In this document: positions 2,040 to 13,066 of the stretch, piece by piece
Numbering within the stretch: position 1 is the first letter of the stretch
Layout of the letters: each line of letters starts with the position of its first letter
Origin: a virus
IMG/VR virus record: IMGVR_UViG_3300011430_000346
Location: 1-24,098 of that record
DNA: 24,098 bases
Direction: 5' to 3' (one strand)
Position numbers and translations under genes: made by a program
Notes under the pieces: generated by a model
What the model saw: only the letters and a program-made list of their open reading frames with translations
Told to the model about the DNA's origin: nothing
Database searches by the model: none

Positions 2040-2324
2040 TTACCCCGCCTCTGCCAGCCGTACCTCGACACGGTTGAACATGCGGGTGTTTTCCTTGATG
2101 ACGCTGGACGACTCGCCCAACGCACGATGGCAGTCCTGTGCGACGTTCATCGCCATCTCGTCACGCTGCTTGAGAGCCGACATCCAGTCGCGCCGCTGCT
2201 CTGACAGCGCGGTCTTGAACTCCTCCGCGTTGCTCTTCATGTGGCGAAGGAAGTAGACCACCACGATGACGAGCACCACAAGCGCAGGCACCTGGGCGAG
2301 GGCGGCTTCGAGCACCTTGTCCAT
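2040..2324 (-). CDS. Small one-helix membrane protein, holin-like or inner-membrane spanin candidate
   Basis: The 94-residue product has one strong membrane helix near the N-terminus (about residues 12-27, VPALVVLVIVVVYFL). A long charged, probably coiled-coil helix follows, ending in VIKENTRMFNRVEVRLAEAG. Small phage proteins with this layout are common next to packaging and lysis genes and are variously labelled holin-like or left unknown; the layout also fits an i-spanin. A longer frame exists upstream, but the start chosen here makes a TAATG overlap with the terL stop codon, which is the usual coupling in this genome. The next gene downstream is a lipoprotein. Membrane anchoring is confident; which lysis role it has, if any, is not. 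Confidence 0.78.
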   Translation of the reverse strand: MDKVLEAALAQVPALVVLVIVVVYFLRHMKSNAEEFKTALSEQRRDWMSALKQRDEMAMNVAQDCHRALGESSSVIKENTRMFNRVEVRLAEAG

Positions 2325-4537
2325 TACTTGCTGCCTCCAAGGAACGTGATCTTGGGCTTCGACCGCGCGTACTTCTTCATCTGCCACGCGATGCCCCACT
2401 TGATGACCTGGTCGTCGTGCGCGCCCGGGTCCGCTTCGAACTTCCCGTTCGACTGCAGCTTGAACGACAGCGCTTCATCGACGAACTCGCGATCCTTGAC
2501 ACCCATGAGGCCGTCCATGATCGCTTCGCTCAGACCGTCGAGCAGAACGTCGCGTGTGTTGCCGTTCGTCGACCAACCGGCGCGCGCCTTCTTGATGTCC
2601 TCCCTCACGTCGAAGAAGTACATGGAGCCGCCGCGGAAATGCGGCTTGCGGTACTGGTTGCCGCCGATCTCGAGCACTTTCTGGATAACCGCGTGCCCGT
2701 GGTTCTCGCGCTCGACTGCGAGGAGCCCGTTGTTGTACTTCTGGCCGAGGCGCACCGCGTGCTCCGCCAGTACGCGCGGATTGAAGAGCCCGTGCACCGC
2801 AGCAACCTGCGCGCCAGTACTCTTGCGAATGACGCCGACGCCGTTCGGATCGCAGCCAGGCAGACCTTCACTGGTGTCGCAGCCAAGAACGTACTCCTCG
2901 TTCTTGACGGGCTTCTCCCACTCAGCTTCGTACCCGCCCGGGATGCCCCACTTGCACGGGTCCGGGTCCGGCATCTTCTCCAGCATCTCTAGCAGCTCAT
3001 CTGTGTCGAAGTAGCAAGTGCCCGACTGGATGAAGCACGAGATGTCGTCCTCAGGCATCTCCTGCGGGAACAGCCGCTTGTACACGCGCTTCTGCTGGCG
3101 CCTGAATGCAACCTGGCCGAGATCAAGCTTGTGCTTAGCCATCAGGTTCTTCTCTTCGTCTGACAGCGTTGCAAGAAGCTCCTCAGGGTCGAACTCACCG
3201 GGACGGCAGCGGTTCAGTGGGTCGTCGAACCAGCGAATGAAGATGGGCGTGAATTCGCTCTTGCCCTGGCGTGCAGACTTGTACTCGTTCGCGAACCACT
3301 CCATGCCGTTCGGCGTCGTCTCCAGGACAACCTCGCCGTGCGCTGCAGCGCCGAGCAGTCCAGCGATGAGGTCATCTACGTCTTCCATGCGGTGCGGACC
3401 GAGACACCACTTCGCAACCTCAGACCCGTGCACGCGCTGAAGCGTATCACCACGGCCCTCACCAGTTCCGCCTGCAGTGCCGATGAAGAAGTACGAGTTG
3501 TTCTCGAACTCGAACGTCTCCTTGCTCTTATCGTTCAGCCGCGGAACGGCTTCCGGGTCTTTCTCATGGAAGACCTTCGTGATGCGCACGATGCGCTTCG
3601 TAGACTTGGTTGTGTGCGCAAGCGTCATTGCGTCCGACCGAGGAAGCTCCTGGCAGACCTGGTACGAGAGCCCCTGCTCAAGCGTGGTGAAACCTCCGCG
3701 CCGGTATTTCAGCAGGAGGTACCACGGCTTCTTGCCCTGCATCACAGCAAGGCGCTTCGCTGCCAGGTAGCGCTTCTGCAGCTGAGAGACGTCGAAGGTG
3801 ACAACAGGAGTTCCGAACTGCGCGCGCCCTTCTGCCTGCTGGCGCTCAGTGAGGAACTCAAGCGGCTTGTCCGTGCGCACTTTCAAGCGCCTGCGCGCGA
3901 AGGTGATGAAAGACTGCGCGCTGAACGTCGGCGCGACGTCCTGCAACTCCATCACGCGCTTGTACAGCGGGTCCGTCTGCGGAAGCACGCGAGGCTTCGT
4001 GTCTGGGAAGAGCTTCGTGATGGCCGCCATGTCGTACTTCAGGAGCTCGTCACCAGCTTCACGGCACGCTTCGTAGAACCAATGACCGCGGTCTGCAATC
4101 TCGCCGAACAGCGTGCGCCTGTCTGCTGACACAATACGCCGCAAGTCTGTCGTGATGTCCTGACAGTCGAGCGCGTAGACCGCTCCAACGTGCGTGAAGG
4201 GCAGCTCATCGGCGTTGAACGTCTTGCCGGAGCACATCCAGACTTCTGCGCCGTTGTTGAGACGGTACGCAGCCATGGACGAGTCAGACCCATGGTCGCT
4301 GTACTTGGTGGTCTTGAAGTCCGCGTCAGCGAGCATGCGGAGCAGTACGTGCTTTGCCCGCTGCGTGCGCTTGGACACGAACATCACGACGACCTGGCCG
4401 TCCGATGCGTCCCGGAGCGCGAGCGCGATGGCCACTTCCAAGAAGCGACCATTGAGCCTCGCGTGCTCGACGAGCGTCTGCGCTCGAAGAGTGACGAGCT
4501 CTGCGTACGGCTCCGGGACGGAGATCGCGACGGACAC
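2324..4537 (-). CDS. terL: Terminase large subunit with an extra N-terminal ATPase-like domain
   Basis: This is the packaging motor and DNA-cutting nuclease. The canonical part spans residues 270-737. It has a Walker-A-like KYRRGGFTT (277-285), the TLAHTTKSTKRI segment, a Walker B region HGSEVAKW (370-377), a coupling motif LETTPNG (405-411), and a nuclease domain with GCDTSEG (Asp553), VEREN (Glu609) and HDDQVIKWGIAW (Asp708/709). At 737 residues it is much longer than the usual 450-600. The extra N-terminal ~185 residues resemble a second terminase ATPase core: VVVMFVSKRTQRAK, then NNGAEVWMCSGK, then AVYALDCQD, then an ADRRTLFGEIADRGHWFYEA tail. A GKS/T loop and the Walker B glutamate are missing there. 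The GTG start directly follows the stop of the holin-like gene (TAGGTG). The terminase call is very secure; the pseudo-domain reading is inference. Confidence 0.96.
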   Translation of the reverse strand: MSVAISVPEPYAELVTLRAQTLVEHARLNGRFLEVAIALALRDASDGQVVVMFVSKRTQRAKHVLLRMLADADFKTTKYSDHGSDSSMAAYRLNNGAEVWMCSGKTFNADELPFTHVGAVYALDCQDITTDLRRIVSADRRTLFGEIADRGHWFYEACREAGDELLKYDMAAITKLFPDTKPRVLPQTDPLYKRVMELQDVAPTFSAQSFITFARRRLKVRTDKPLEFLTERQQAEGRAQFGTPVVTFDVSQLQKRYLAAKRLAVMQGKKPWYLLLKYRRGGFTTLEQGLSYQVCQELPRSDAMTLAHTTKSTKRIVRITKVFHEKDPEAVPRLNDKSKETFEFENNSYFFIGTAGGTGEGRGDTLQRVHGSEVAKWCLGPHRMEDVDDLIAGLLGAAAHGEVVLETTPNGMEWFANEYKSARQGKSEFTPIFIRWFDDPLNRCRPGEFDPEELLATLSDEEKNLMAKHKLDLGQVAFRRQQKRVYKRLFPQEMPEDDISCFIQSGTCYFDTDELLEMLEKMPDPDPCKWGIPGGYEAEWEKPVKNEEYVLGCDTSEGLPGCDPNGVGVIRKSTGAQVAAVHGLFNPRVLAEHAVRLGQKYNNGLLAVERENHGHAVIQKVLEIGGNQYRKPHFRGGSMYFFDVREDIKKARAGWSTNGNTRDVLLDGLSEAIMDGLMGVKDREFVDEALSFKLQSNGKFEADPGAHDDQVIKWGIAWQMKKYARSKPKITFLGGSK

Positions 4538-6098: not shown

Positions 6099-6790
6099 AC
6101 TGACGCTCCGCGCTCTTCTTGGTCGTCTACAAACGGCACACGCACAACTCTCACGTCAGACACTACAGACACTTGCCGGTCGTCGAACGCAACAACAGCA
6201 TACTGCTCTTCTGGCTGCGCTACCGCTCTTCGATCGTCGAACGCAACTACCGCGTACTGCTCGTCTGGTACTCGAGCGACTGCGTCCGCGAATGCAGCGA
6301 GTCCGACCTTCGGCACTTTCAGTACTCGCTCACTTAGCAGTACCGGAGTGAAAACCGAACCGCTAAGTGTTCCAGACCCGATTACTGCCGCGTCAAAGAA
6401 CTCGAAGAAAGTGAACGTCCCTTCTACGTCGCCTTCTCCTACAGCCGTTGTGTTCAACAGCGACGTTACTCCGGGTTCACCGCTTGTAGACGCAGATCCA
6501 ACTGCCTCTGCGTCTACAAGCGACACACCAACTACGTTTCCTGCAAGACTTCCGCTCCCGGACTCCGTGCCACTAGCGAGCGCGGTAATAGTCGCGCTTC
6601 CACTTAGGCTGCCGGAACCTGAGAGCGTCCCCGCCATCTGGACTGTTGGGTCAGTCTGCGGCGTCCAAACGTACGGAGTTGTAACTTCAACTGGTGCGAA
6701 AACGTAACGCGAGTCACAAGTCAAGCCTGGCAGCGTCATCGACATTGACCGAGTGAAACCCCATCGTCCTAGACGGTTCGTGATCAGCAT
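6095..6790 (-). CDS. Gly/Ser-rich repeat virion protein with tandem QYAVVAFDDR motif
   Basis: The 231-residue product lacks cysteine-rich or catalytic motifs. Its middle is a beta-type repeat region with several GSGSLSG-like units (AGTLSGSGSLSG, SGSGSLAG, IGSGTLSG), as in tail-fibre shafts. Near the C-terminus the sequence EQYAVVAFDDR occurs twice, 18 residues apart, followed by a related VVSDVRVVRVPF stretch. This resembles the 'VPAEDR' repeats seen in phage proteins encoded next to fibre-tail adaptors. The start overlaps the upstream stop as TGATG, and the stop overlaps the adaptor start as ATGA. A role in fibre attachment is likely from position; the exact role is unknown. Confidence 0.8.
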   Translation of the reverse strand: MLITNRLGRWGFTRSMSMTLPGLTCDSRYVFAPVEVTTPYVWTPQTDPTVQMAGTLSGSGSLSGSATITALASGTESGSGSLAGNVVGVSLVDAEAVGSASTSGEPGVTSLLNTTAVGEGDVEGTFTFFEFFDAAVIGSGTLSGSVFTPVLLSERVLKVPKVGLAAFADAVARVPDEQYAVVAFDDRRAVAQPEEQYAVVAFDDRQVSVVSDVRVVRVPFVDDQEERGASV

Positions 6791-7698
6791 CAGTTCTCTA
6801 CTGTCTGAAACACAAGAGCACTTGAGTTATCATGGAACGGATTCGTTCCTGGAATCACCCAGAAAAGACTGAGACACTCGTCGCCATCCAAGATCGGAAA
6901 CACTGCGCGCTCTCGAATGAGCGACATTGCTGAAGGGCCGTCAGAAGGAAAGCCTGCTAGTTCATTCAGGTAGTACTGGTCATTGCCCCACATTGTGATC
7001 GGGTAGACAAGCGTGAGGTCTGACACGCCAGCTGTAGACGTCCCGTCGAACTGCGCACTCTCGATTGACTGCACTCCAAAGTCACCTGCTTGCGGCGTCA
7101 TGAACAGCGGCTGGGTGTCTGCAGTTGAAACGACCCAAGACGCTTCTGAAAACCCGGTGCTGACCGGCACAACGATCGTCCCCGTCCTTCCTCCGTCACC
7201 GTGCTCGTTCGTGTACGTCACTGTCAGTGTCCGCTGCGTTGCTGCGTTCCGCGCGGTGCTAGCGACAAGAGCCACCCGAACACCCAAGCCCGACACCTTC
7301 CGCGGAAGTCCTACTCCGTTCGTCATGTTCTGAAGTGTCGCTATCGTATGGTCAATTCCACCATACGCAAGCAGACGGTCGTGAAGCAGCATCGTCCCGC
7401 AAGCTTCTATGGCATGCGAGCATCCAACTGCGTGAACTACTTCCACGAGGTGCTGTCGGTTACCTGCCCGCGGCGCGCGCAGTACGATGCTTCCTACATC
7501 ACCGTGCGTGTACGCGACGGCAGTCAGTGCAGGTGTAGGATGAGAACCTGCAACACCTCCAGGAAACTTCACCACGCCGAAGAGGTCTACCCACTGCGTA
7601 AACTTTCGGCCCACGTTGCCAAAGACAACTACGCGTCGTTCTTCCTGGCCGCTTCGAAGAGCGGTTTGGATTTCAGCGTACGTCTCGAAGCCACTCAC
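6790..7698 (-). CDS. Virion structural protein, paralogue of the 7840-8682 product
   Basis: The 302-residue product begins MSGFETYAEIQTAL and ends in VEN. It is clearly related to the 7840-8682 product, which begins MSGFLTYDEIIAAI and ends in AEN. The shared centre is GTMLLHDRLLAYGGIDH...QNMTNGVGLPR versus GTLILADRLLDYGVLDH...QNLTNDVSLAR, and both have a 'GD.GV..(V/I)' segment followed by beta strands. Proteins with this 'LLxYxxxD...T(Q)QxLTN..LPRYTDGKGV' pattern occur in tailed-phage virion regions. It starts with GTG in a GTGA overlap with the 47-residue gene. Fold and role (fibre or tail-surface protein) are inferred from context. Confidence 0.82.
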   Translation of the reverse strand: MSGFETYAEIQTALRSGQEERRVVVFGNVGRKFTQWVDLFGVVKFPGGVAGSHPTPALTAVAYTHGDVGSIVLRAPRAGNRQHLVEVVHAVGCSHAIEACGTMLLHDRLLAYGGIDHTIATLQNMTNGVGLPRKVSGLGVRVALVASTARNAATQRTLTVTYTNEHGDGGRTGTIVVPVSTGFSEASWVVSTADTQPLFMTPQAGDFGVQSIESAQFDGTSTAGVSDLTLVYPITMWGNDQYYLNELAGFPSDGPSAMSLIRERAVFPILDGDECLSLFWVIPGTNPFHDNSSALVFQTVEN

Positions 7699-7839: not shown

Positions 7840-8682
7840 CTAGTTCTCCGCAGCGCCAAGAGAGCCGAAGAGAACAGGCGTCGCGCTGACGGCCGCCACG
7901 AGGATCCACATCAGCGCGTGGTCGTCGTACAGACGCGGAAGAGACGCGATCTGCATCACAAGGTCCCGTTCACTTGCGACACCTGCTTGGAGTAGTGGAA
8001 GCTCAAGGAGCGGCTTGCACAGCACGAGGTTGGATTTGCCAGCGCCGCCGCCCGCCGCAGAGAAGGTGATGTGATTCACTTTCTTCACGCCATGATCGCC
8101 TGCCGCTAGAGGAATCCAGACACCGTTCACTCCGTGCGGAACCTCGTCAACTGCCGCGGTTGTGCGCATCGCGATGCTCACCGACGTCTGACCGTTAGAC
8201 ACATCTGAGTCGTAGTTCATCGAGAGGTTCTGCGCAACACCACCCAGAACAGTCGTCACTTCAAGGAACGCCATCACGCCTTTGCCGTCTGTGTACCGCG
8301 CGAGCGACACGTCGTTTGTAAGGTTCTGCTGCGCGTTCGAGTTGTGGTCTAGCACGCCGTAGTCAAGGAGCCGATCAGCAAGGATCAGCGTCCCCATCGG
8401 CGAACCCGCTGACGACATCGCGAGCGCGCGAAGCAGATGCAGCGTGCGCCCACCCGTGGGATTTACGAACGCCAACGCACCGGTGATTGAGTCATCGACA
8501 ACACGCGCAGTCAGTGCGGTTGGATCGGTGCCCGCTGCGGGAAGCCCAGAGCGTCTCCACGAAGAGTGGATACGGCCTGCCGCTCCTGACGCTGGCATGG
8601 ACTTGTTGAAGAAGTACGTCTGTCCACGTGCGTTGACGGAGATCGCCGCGATGATCTCGTCGTAAGTGAGAAATCCGCTCAT
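7840..8682 (-). CDS. Virion structural protein, paralogue of the 6790-7698 product
   Basis: The 280-residue product carries the better-preserved form of the shared pattern: DRLLDYGVLDHN, QNLTNDVSLARYTDGKGV, MAFLEVTTVLGGVAQNLSMNYDSD, then PLAAGDHGVKKVNHITFS. I recall this pattern from phage proteins encoded near tail-fibre genes and described only as structural or hypothetical. The frame is open 13 codons further upstream, but the start chosen makes an ATGA overlap with the Gp80-like gene and matches the paralogue's MSGF start. It contains little cysteine and no signal peptide. A tail-tip or fibre role is likely; receptor binding is possible but not shown. Confidence 0.83.
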   Translation of the reverse strand: MSGFLTYDEIIAAISVNARGQTYFFNKSMPASGAAGRIHSSWRRSGLPAAGTDPTALTARVVDDSITGALAFVNPTGGRTLHLLRALAMSSAGSPMGTLILADRLLDYGVLDHNSNAQQNLTNDVSLARYTDGKGVMAFLEVTTVLGGVAQNLSMNYDSDVSNGQTSVSIAMRTTAAVDEVPHGVNGVWIPLAAGDHGVKKVNHITFSAAGGGAGKSNLVLCKPLLELPLLQAGVASERDLVMQIASLPRLYDDHALMWILVAAVSATPVLFGSLGAAEN

Positions 8683-9032
8683 GACACCGTCGCGATCAGC
8701 GTCCCGACTCGCCACTCGCATGTCTGTCCTGCGAGGACTTCCTTGGCTTCGTCAAGAGCTCCGTAGAGGACAGGTGTGTCAAGGTCCGTGTTCCACAGCG
8801 ACGTGTGCGTCACTGTGCAAGCAGGCATCCCGTCGAACTGAACTACAACGTCGTTAGACATGGAGCCTGCGACCGGCGCACCGAAGGTCACAACCTCAGG
8901 AGCATACGATCCTCCGACAACTTCGTTCGCCGTGCAGTCCTCGCCTGGGTCACCGGTGTGCATTCGGACTTCCAGATTGAGGGCGCGAATTGCCGTGAGG
9001 ATCGCTTGCTCGTAAGCGTTTGAGAAACTCAT
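8679..9032 (-). CDS. Gp80-like phage tail/fibre-associated protein
   Basis: The 117-residue product follows a small all-beta phage family found next to tail fibres. A short N-terminal helix (SNAYEQAILTAIRAL) leads to MHTGDPGED, EVVGGSYAPEVVTFGAP, a VVVQFDGM strand, VTHTSLWNTD, VLYGALDEAKEVLAGQ and a final VGTLIATVS strand. The 'GGSYAxxxVTFGAP ... VTHxxLW ... LxxGAL ... V..G' order is the family signature. Length is normal. Both ends overlap neighbours by ATGA. In other phages these proteins lie near the tail tip; the exact function is not settled. Confidence 0.82.
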   Translation of the reverse strand: MSFSNAYEQAILTAIRALNLEVRMHTGDPGEDCTANEVVGGSYAPEVVTFGAPVAGSMSNDVVVQFDGMPACTVTHTSLWNTDLDTPVLYGALDEAKEVLAGQTCEWRVGTLIATVS

Positions 9033-10615: not shown

Positions 10616-11869
10616 TTAGGCCGCTGCCTCTTCGTACACTGTCTGCTTCCATCGGTGCGTGAAGTCGACCATGAACTGGTGCTCGCCGTCCGGTACGAGC
10701 TCGTACTCTTCCCACCCTTCCGGCTCGACGGTGTCCAGCGCTGCAAGCGCAATCCTCGCTGCCCAACGCCCTGCGGTCAGCGGGCAGTTCTTCGCGAGGA
10801 CCGACGCTGCTTTCGCGACGCTGTCTGTCCATGTGAACGAGAACGAGTCTGGCAGCGACATAATGCGCGCAAACTCGCGCACAGTCAGGCCGCGCTTCTC
10901 CGCGTAGTGCATGAACCCGCCCGAGCACATCCCGGTGAGTACCCACGCGCCGCGCCGTTCTCCGTCGATGCGCCGCACGCGTCCGAAGAACTGCTCCAGG
11001 ACGAGGCGCTCCCAAAGAGCCTCAGCTCCCTTAGGAACTGTCCTGTGTTGCGCGTGGTAGCGCGCGAGGACGCGCTCGACGTCCTCACCGATGCGCCACC
11101 CGTCGTCCCACAGAGTGGACTGCACATGGCGCCACGACGGAGACTCAATCCACTGGTGCGCGGTGATCTCGTTCGTGTCCGCGTGCTGCATCGCCCAGTC
11201 GCTCGGAAGGTTGCGCCTGGGCTGCGGTGCCCACGTCTCCTGGAGACCCATGAGGTCGCCGATGACCTCATGATACGTGGGCGGCTGCTCTTGAGGCGGC
11301 ACGAAGCACCGGAACGGAATGCGCGCCGCGTACCAGAAATACCGCGCTCGCGCTTGGCACCCGTTGAGCGAAGCGTCACTGTGCAGCAGGTGATACAGCT
11401 TGTAGTCCTCACCTGTGCGCTCACGAAGGATGCGCAAGTACGTGTACATCAGCGACTTGCCCTGCGAATACGCCTGACGCACAGACTCGAACGCGACTAC
11501 CTCAGGTCCTGGGCGACCGTCCTCACCCGTGCACCGCGCAGCGTACTCCACGAGCTTGCGTTGGCACGAGTTGATCGGCGAGTCGATGCCGCGTGAGTTC
11601 GGACCGCCGTTGTTGTTGATGACGCTGAAACCGCTGCACGGCGGCGTGCCGTTGAGGTACGCTGCACCGTGCACCGGCTCCCACAGCTCCGCTTCGCCGG
11701 TCTCCATCTCGAAGTCGGTACCGAAGAGGTGCGTGTTCGCGTCCACGCAAGCGTTCCCGAACCCACCAGGGAGCGCAAGGCGCCGCGCGATGGTGAATCC
11801 TTCCTTGACCGCGCCCAGCGCGACGCCGCCGCCGCCGAGCGCTTGGCAGTCAATGTAGCGGTGGCTCAC
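10616..11869 (-). CDS. DNA (cytosine-5) methyltransferase
   Basis: The 417-residue enzyme would transfer a methyl group from S-adenosylmethionine to cytosine C5, probably shielding phage DNA from host restriction. Motif I is DCQALGGGGVALGAVKEGF (7-25), motif IV TPPCSGFS with catalytic Cys78, motif VI FESV (127-130), motif VIII QARARYF (172-178), and the C-terminal motifs GLTVREFARIMSLPDSF (327-343) and NCPLTAGRWAARI (361-373). A target-recognition region of about 130 residues lies between. Motif VI is ESV instead of the usual ENV, keeping the glutamate but losing the asparagine. The start is GTG in a GTGA overlap with the exported-protein gene. No partner endonuclease is visible, so it looks like an orphan phage methyltransferase. 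Confidence 0.9.
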   Translation of the reverse strand: MSHRYIDCQALGGGGVALGAVKEGFTIARRLALPGGFGNACVDANTHLFGTDFEMETGEAELWEPVHGAAYLNGTPPCSGFSVINNNGGPNSRGIDSPINSCQRKLVEYAARCTGEDGRPGPEVVAFESVRQAYSQGKSLMYTYLRILRERTGEDYKLYHLLHSDASLNGCQARARYFWYAARIPFRCFVPPQEQPPTYHEVIGDLMGLQETWAPQPRRNLPSDWAMQHADTNEITAHQWIESPSWRHVQSTLWDDGWRIGEDVERVLARYHAQHRTVPKGAEALWERLVLEQFFGRVRRIDGERRGAWVLTGMCSGGFMHYAEKRGLTVREFARIMSLPDSFSFTWTDSVAKAASVLAKNCPLTAGRWAARIALAALDTVEPEGWEEYELVPDGEHQFMVDFTHRWKQTVYEEAAA

Positions 11870-12195: not shown

Positions 12196-12422
12196 TTGGT
12201 CACCACGCCTGGGCGTGTCTTGGACGCGTCAAGCACCGTGATGCGATCGGCGCCAATGGCAAGACGGCGCTTGTGCGTCTCCTTGCCTTCGGTGACGTTC
12301 GCCATGACCACGTAGTCTCGACCGCCGCACCACTTCTCGATGATGCCTGGATGCTTTCCATCGACGAGAACGCGCACGCCCTTCTGCAGCGGTCCGTTCG
12401 TGTGGTCGCTCAGCATGTTCAT
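12192..12422 (-). CDS. Small KOW/SH3-like beta-barrel protein, unknown
   Basis: The 76-residue product contains KGVRVLVDGKHPGIIEKWCGGRDYVVMANV, then HKRRLAIGADRITVLD. The alternation of short strands with 'V.G..G.I......Y.V' resembles small KOW or SH3-type barrels. It is basic overall. The ATG forms an ATGA overlap with the stop of the small-terminase candidate, and its own stop overlaps the start of the exported protein. Position directly after the small terminase suggests a packaging or virion-assembly role, but that is only contextual. Confidence 0.75.
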   Translation of the reverse strand: MNMLSDHTNGPLQKGVRVLVDGKHPGIIEKWCGGRDYVVMANVTEGKETHKRRLAIGADRITVLDASKTRPGVVTK

Positions 12423-13066
12423 GTGATGATGATCGTGGTGCCGGCCTTTGCGTTCTCGTTCGTCGTCTTGATGTCGTTGAACTCAGTCATGATCGCCTTC
12501 AGCTTCGACTCATCTGTCACGTACCGCTCGACGATACGCGTGACGCTCATCATCATCTGCTGCACCTGCTTCGGCGTGTAAAGCCCTCGCGTCAACGCCA
12601 TGACCTTTGCGGCTTTCTCCACAAGGCTCATCACGTTCTGGAGATTGTTCAGCAAGGCCTGTCGAGACGCCGCCTTCAGCTCCGGATTGATCTCGCCTTC
12701 CTTCTCTCCGTAGTGCGCCGCGTCGAAAATCCGCACAGCGCGCTCAGTGAGCAGCCGTGCGAGGTCAATCTCTGCTTCGAGCGAGAACCGGTCGTTCTCC
12801 GCTTCCGCGAACTCTTTGAGCGCGTCTTGCAATCGTTTCGATGCGCGCGTCGTGTACGGTGAGTGGCTCATCTCGCGTCGCCTCCCGTGCGAACGTCCCC
12901 CGTGCACGCGACAGCGAGGCGGGTCCGTGCCTTTCTCACCCCAATGCGGACATTGCTCTCCGTGCAGAGGGCCGTCAGCACGTCGACGCCCGATGCAGCG
13001 TCTAGGATGGTCTGGCGCAGGACATCCGTGCAGGTGGTGCGATGAGGGATTGTCGCCAGTGGGCAT
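12419..13066 (-). CDS. Terminase small subunit-like protein with Cys/His N-terminus
   Basis: The 215-residue product has an N-terminal Cys/His region (Cys15, Cys24, Cys39, Cys52) ending in CRVHGG (52-57). A long helical part follows: ASKRLQDALKEFAEAENDRFSLEAEIDLARLLTERA and, later, YTPKQVQQMMMSVTRIVERYVTDESKLKAIMTEF. This 'C..xxxCxxHGG' start plus helical body is characteristic of a phage family usually labelled terminase small subunit. Such proteins recognise the packaging site and help recruit the large subunit. The ATG lies nine bases after AAAGGAGG and follows a promoter-like gap. It is unusually far from terL, about 8 kb. Family match is from memory; DNA-binding function is inferred. Confidence 0.72.
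   Translation of the reverse strand: MPTGDNPSSHHLHGCPAPDHPRRCIGRRRADGPLHGEQCPHWGEKGTDPPRCRVHGGRSHGRRREMSHSPYTTRASKRLQDALKEFAEAENDRFSLEAEIDLARLLTERAVRIFDAAHYGEKEGEINPELKAASRQALLNNLQNVMSLVEKAAKVMALTRGLYTPKQVQQMMMSVTRIVERYVTDESKLKAIMTEFNDIKTTNENAKAGTTIIIT

Follow-up and report, generated by a model that had tools for sequence, protein, structure and literature searches.

A large terminase of uncultivated tailed viruses with an additional N-terminal domain of predicted terminase ATPase fold

Described packaging motors and the layout of the terminase

Current views hold packaging motors to be homomeric rings built from a single active ATPase, and the coordination of their subunits is an open question. 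The large terminase (TerL) of the PBSX-like phage D6E (PDB 5oea and others; PMC5727402) has one ATPase domain joined directly to the nuclease; its P-loop reads R44-A-G-K47-T, and R44, E143 and the trans-arginine R158 are each needed for ATP hydrolysis (PMC5727402). The TerL of Thermus phage P74-26 (PDB 4znl, 4zni) is an active enzyme with R139 as trans-arginine. T4 gp17 has a single ATPase domain, the preceding ~110 residues holding no second ATPase, and T4 motors can pass over an inactive subunit, at a cost (PMC8589836). In the herpesvirus terminase pUL15/pUL28/pUL33, the motor subunit consists of an active ATPase/nuclease and non-catalytic partners, and no ATPase features were found in pUL28 (PMC7196598). 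Those partners are separate proteins, whereas the terminase presented here carries a fused domain that is likely a dead ATPase. The sequence-only reading had called a tandem of pseudo-ATPase and ATPase an unfamiliar architecture, and in the open-licence literature we found no terminase described with a tandem, duplicated or pseudo-ATPase domain.

The window, that is, the whole stretch of viral DNA analysed (24,098 nucleotides), contains an ORF of 737 aa on the minus strand, open from a GTG at position 4537 to a stop at 2324. The GTG directly follows the stop of an upstream holin-like gene, and GAGG about 5 nt 5' of it is a plausible ribosome site; no conserved internal start giving the second ATPase domain alone was seen in the homologue alignment. 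The ORF is divided as follows (aided by PHROG matches to the C-terminal part and by full-length homologues including L001, L006 and L007):

2324-4537, minus strand: whole ORF, 737 aa, D1 (putative pseudo-ATPase), linker, D2 (ATPase) and nuclease
3923-4534, minus strand: D1, residues 2-205, predicted degenerate terminase ATPase core with lid (AlphaFold2, Foldseek against PDB, BFVD, VIA, alignment of 16 sequences)
3728-3922, minus strand: residues 206-270, normal TerL N-terminal segment (F..FA..RL.IRT ... LQKRYLA.KRL), from alignment to sister TerLs
3218-3727, minus strand: D2, residues 271-440, ATPase of active type (T4 gp17 match, conserved catalytic columns)
2327-3217, minus strand: nuclease domain, residues 441-737, with acidic D554, E609 and D708/D709 (PHROG, conserved columns)

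PHROG terminase families match residues ~246-729 only, and T4 gp17, the sequence kin of D2, matches residues 247-436; the protein is a tailed-phage large terminase with an extra N-terminal domain, D1, giving two ATPase-type domains where D6E has one. A complete terminase had been placed from about residue 270 onwards. However, residues 206-270, a segment about 25 residues longer than its counterpart in sister TerLs, align with the N-terminus of those sisters, so the ordinary TerL starts near residue 206, at the segment equivalent to which the extension-less TerLs also start.

D2 displays the Walker A KYRRGGFTT, R362, GSE373 with the catalytic Glu and the coupling motif ETTPNG in 17 members, and the sisters show minor variants. 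K277, R279, R280 and R362 are kept in 17/17, with E373 and the acidic nuclease residues conserved in practically all members; the C-terminal RNase H-like nuclease, with conserved D554, E609 and D708/D709, is also the part with the PHROG terminase match. Sister TerLs share these D2 and nuclease motifs and differ by the absence of D1, which argues that D1 adds something and does not substitute for a lost function of D2. At the Walker B of D2, the usual Asp is absent and the Glu kept in D1-bearing and sister TerLs alike, the former reading HGSEV[A/S/P] and sisters L024, L027, L020 and L022 HWSEVAWSC.

Predicted fold and former catalytic sites of D1

The first 185 residues had been read by eye as following the order of a terminase ATPase core, and the strings quoted for it (ALALRD, VVVMFVSKRTQRAK, NNGAEVWMCSGK, AVYALDCQD and RRTLFGEIADRGHWFYEA) are all present there. 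Using AlphaFold2, whose training included terminase structures, residues 2-212 were modelled from 16 homologues with no templates and no other terminase sequence as input, and the model reached a pLDDT of 88.7 and a pTM of 0.86, with five models within 0.7. The predicted structure is a RecA-like (ASCE) fold with a lid, nearest to the ATPase domains of TerLs. Its elements follow each other as in the terminase ASCE core: strand, 8-residue P-loop, helix, strand, helix, strands, Walker B strand, helix, coupling strand and helix. A full-length model from four sequences displayed the identical order of elements in D1; its pLDDT was 45.9 and its nuclease fold not confident, and it was not used for the domain arrangement.

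Searching the PDB with Foldseek, the D1 model gave 24 matches with E ≤ 0.001, all 24 to large terminases, with the D6E TerL on top (1.4e-5) and D6E and Sf6 as the best matches; E values of TerLs were one to two orders of magnitude better than that of NAT10. In the BFVD fold search, the top matches among entries with names were nearly all TerLs. In VIA-align, ranks 1-20 were TerL chains with Z of 13.4-17.6, including P74-26 as the closest (Z 17.6, 190 of 211 residues, rmsd 2.7), D6E (16.3, with ~198 residues of core and lid aligned), HK97 (16.1), Sf6 (16.0) and T4 gp17 (14.8), while the first non-terminase was NAT10 (13.2) and helicases reached ~11. In these alignments, residues 1-202 of the model are matched to complete ATPase domains, lid included. 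The order of a terminase core is, thus, confirmed beyond chance by the model and the fold searches, and the observation made at 3983-4537 holds, although these positions cut the domain short, as D1 reaches about residue 205 with its lid.

Sequence profiles, in contrast to the predicted structure, are silent. Pfam, PHROGs and NCBIfam left D1 unmatched when run on the ORF or its N-terminal part, Pfam and PHROGs gave no match for any of 16 D1 members, and an hmmsearch of every PDB sequence with the D1 profile found none, so that a conserved domain of 200 residues in a viral hallmark protein escapes Pfam, PHROGs and NCBIfam alike. With hhalign, D1 was compared to D2 and eight reference profiles; D2, D6E, P74-26, Sf6, HK97, lambda, T4 and P2 gave probabilities of about 1% or less, similar to the portal control; the T4 reference profile had absorbed relatives of D2, and its score with D2 is circular. 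These HHpred-like tests showed no terminase match and no match to an unrelated family either, and the link between D1 and terminases, therefore, rests on predicted structure and motif order.

Residue equivalences between D1 and known TerLs were set by alignment and element order, and locate the following sites:

4442-4465, minus strand: P-loop equivalent, residues 25-32 (HARLNGRF), from alignment, between model strand 21-25 and helix 32-46
4190-4231, minus strand: loop before the Walker B strand, residues 103-116 (SGKTFNADELPFTH), from alignment
4154-4186, minus strand: Walker B strand and catalytic-Glu site, residues 118-128 (GAVYALDCQDI), from the family alignment with a register of ±1
4070-4111, minus strand: end of the coupling strand and following helix, residues 143-156 (LFGEIADRGHWFYE), from the family alignment
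3923-4030, minus strand: lid segment, residues 170-205, with an FPDQ motif (FPDT in the window), from alignment and VIA coverage

A GKS/T loop had been described as missing; instead, the P-loop is present at the length of an 8-residue Walker A, with the family pattern HAxL[D/N]xR. The Walker Lys is replaced by Arg31 in 18/18 loci (window included), the Gly before it is not conserved, and the following Ser/Thr position, mostly lost, reads F, M, T, I, G or A and is a Thr in just L007 and L032. The Asp of the Walker B strand had been considered kept and the Glu replaced. At the aligned site, none of the members carries D-E, the columns varying in either register (the strand ends in LDCQDI in the window and in CDAHAL, VADAHLE, VNANAL, ICEAHSV, VGCDEV and others in relatives). 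The identity of D124 is uncertain by one residue, as it may correspond to the Walker B Asp or to the catalytic Glu, the latter being favoured by hhalign with D6E; column 124 itself varies between D, E, N, G, R and V. By sequence alignment, the D1 family shows no conserved Arg at the trans-arginine position of P74-26 R139 or D6E R158, and the loop 103-116, which the alignment suggests to match that of the active P74-26 enzyme, is acidic in most members. Unlike D6E, D1 has no P-loop Lys and, in the alignment, no conserved counterparts of R44, E143 and R158. Since the P-loop Lys and most other catalytic residues are gone, D1 has likely lost ATP catalysis, as the sequence-only reading had proposed.

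The most conserved residues of D1 are L28, R31, W100, H152, W153 and P178 (window ORF numbering). Among them are residues of the former P-loop and of the stretch that follows the coupling strand; going by the fold order, these would lie on the old nucleotide side of the sheet. HW in residues 143-156 is invariant across 17 aligned members; L276 reads YW and keeps the Arg. The helix after the coupling strand opens with HWF in D1 as in D6E, where NPAGPYHWFK has an invariant H177 and W178 in 63/68 relatives. The resemblance to Terminase_6-type proteins that had been suggested found no support, the HWF motif resembling D6E/PBSX-type TerLs instead. The hhalign of D1 with the D6E family sets HWF on HWF (probability 0.7%, E 0.09), and the hhalign of D1 with D2, bearing on an origin by tandem duplication, was not significant. 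As HWF matches the D6E relatives, the best Foldseek matches were D6E and Sf6, and D2 is related to gp17, there are hints, to be taken as a lead, that D1 came from a captured PBSX-like ATPase domain and not from a duplication of D2.

Relatives, clade and neighbouring genes

Relatives were gathered by scanning IMG/VR with the complete protein and with alignments of increasing size, and by one scan of GTDB genomes. Seventeen other distinct loci (L001, L006, L007, L012, L013, L019, L030, L031, L032, L033, L035, L036, L038, L040, L041, L042 and L276, the last a contig of a Robiginitomaculum MAG) carry the N-terminal extension in the same ORF as TerL, giving 18 with the window; the D1 of L036 and L042 are nearly identical, and the loci are in this respect not fully independent. 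The sister TerLs that lack the extension (L020-L029, L043-L045 and L277) show 36-60% identity in D2 or the nuclease, and L010, L049 and others are farther away. Neither a stand-alone D1 nor the extension as an unrelated separate gene occurred in the loci examined. Given also the RecA-like fold of the model and the silence of the profile tests, none of the three outcomes that were to speak against the sequence-only reading appeared, and that reading is right in its main claim. The conserved-peptide scan found no relatives with the window D1 alone and no new ones with a three-member D1 alignment, tblastn of three D1 sequences against 50,697 named phages gave nothing, and the scan with the Sf6 TerL gave near-identical copies only. 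So far, the D1 architecture is confined to uncultivated viruses.

In a maximum-likelihood tree of the D2 and nuclease part, the extension-bearing sequences and the truncated L034 form one clade, with a modest bootstrap support of 63 at the deepest node and 83-100 inside. A single gain of D1 in the ancestor of the clade is the simplest history. D1 is open over ~205 codons in 18 loci, down to ~23% D1 identity. Pairs with unsaturated dS displayed dN/dS values of 0.06-0.28 for D1 and 0.05-0.23 for D2, and mean pairwise identity was 28% for D1 versus 56% for D2; D1 is under purifying selection and changes faster than D2, i.e., it is constrained, yet freer.

In most D1-bearing loci, the gene immediately upstream of TerL is a homologue of one further gene of the window:

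12419-13066, minus strand: gene with HGG and Cys motifs

Ten D1-bearing loci, and L276 too, have the HGG-type gene upstream of TerL, while its homologue in the window is 8 kb away; it probably has the role of a small terminase. Sisters without D1 have an HTH-type gene, called phrog_645, at that position. L038 has D1 together with an HTH-type gene, the latter with a weak match to the small terminase family phrog_1206 (E 0.004). The idea that D1 replaces an accessory subunit was set aside: with both D1 and an HTH-type gene in L038 and HGG-type neighbours in most others, D1 is not simply a replacement of the small terminase. Upstream of the sister TerL in L045, a gene with long DKVRAKVGAKVW-type repeats was seen (L045:3806-5545).

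Proposed role of D1 and further observations

We consider it somewhat probable that D1 is a terminase-type ATPase with lid that was fused once, lost catalysis and now serves as a built-in, non-catalytic companion for the assembly or control of the motor. The fusion to the N-terminus of a complete TerL would have taken place in an ancestor shared by one clade of uncultivated tailed viruses; D1 would have lost ATP catalysis and kept the shape of an ATPase. It would most likely pack on D2 of the same or a neighbouring chain, or on the portal side of the ring, and each active motor subunit would carry a fixed pseudo-subunit, which may shape ring assembly and ATPase coupling. Since the T4 motor skips an inactive subunit (PMC8589836), non-catalytic elements in a ring are mechanically tolerable, and together with the herpesvirus composites (PMC7196598) this makes a companion-domain design plausible. 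A more far-reaching possibility, more doubtful than likely, is a covalent pseudo-ATPase/ATPase motor with one dead and one live domain per chain, arranged as an alternating ring or as two tiers with a non-catalytic collar; if true, this would be a layout undescribed for any DNA-packaging virus. A natural TerL with a fixed, putatively dead ATPase in each subunit would offer a ready-made experiment on the effects of pseudo-subunits on assembly, coordination and processivity, and would be a case of evolution adding a non-catalytic domain of the motor fold, parallel to other ATPase families.

Among the other explanations, D1 might be a dead ATPase retained because of its surfaces and used as a docking platform, one that lies outside the ATPase ring and recruits the HGG-type small terminase, the portal or the DNA end. 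Its fast divergence relative to D2 is what co-evolution with a partner predicts, and the proximity of the HGG-type gene to TerL in so many D1-bearing loci fits as well; however, D1 changes most slowly in what was its nucleotide pocket (L-D/N-x-R, HW, FPDQ), which is no obvious outer surface, and L038, with its HTH-type gene, breaks a one-to-one pairing with HGG, leaving this a rather doubtful reading. The same pocket could be used differently, with D1 binding a nucleotide or another phosphate ligand unhydrolysed, Arg31 standing in for Lys, as a sensor that switches the motor. By fold position, the top-conserved residues do cluster around the old pocket, at the P-loop and the ends of the Walker B and coupling strands, yet neither the Ser/Thr for Mg2+ nor the Gly before the Lys is conserved, the Walker B/Glu column is variable and a conserved trans-arginine was absent from the alignment, so we regard such a sensor as improbable.

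That D1 is some other RecA-like domain, of helicase or tRNA-acetyltransferase type, merely resembling terminases, is very improbable: RecA-like domains of NAT10/Kre33 reach Z of 12-13.2 and helicases ~11, and sequence profiles do not pick terminases, but the first twenty ranks go to TerL entries of five unrelated phage groups (Z up to 17.6), the Foldseek E values and the named top matches in BFVD favour TerL, and D1 is fused to a terminase. We give hardly any credence to a functionless, decaying relic of a duplication, or to an N-terminal part left untranslated owing to a downstream start, for D1, even if evolving faster than the remainder of the protein, is open in all 18 loci with low dN/dS and invariant residues, and the start codon with its plausible ribosome site stands right after the upstream stop. 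Read against these alternatives, a companion role in assembling or controlling the motor is the explanation that we prefer.

Some further features were observed near the terminase genes. In the TerL of L042 (L042:5647-9264), EYPEDDES and CFLTSG, which lie at the edge of the nuclease domain, are separated by a large insert that shows features like those of an intein (C...HN|C). In the window, all on the minus strand, positions 1-1683 encode a portal protein (PF04860), with small genes between portal and TerL; the neighbouring genes at 6790-7698 and 7840-8721, to which no function was assigned, are paralogues (29% identity, E 2e-20), and 10616-11869 encodes a C5 cytosine DNA methyltransferase (PF00145).
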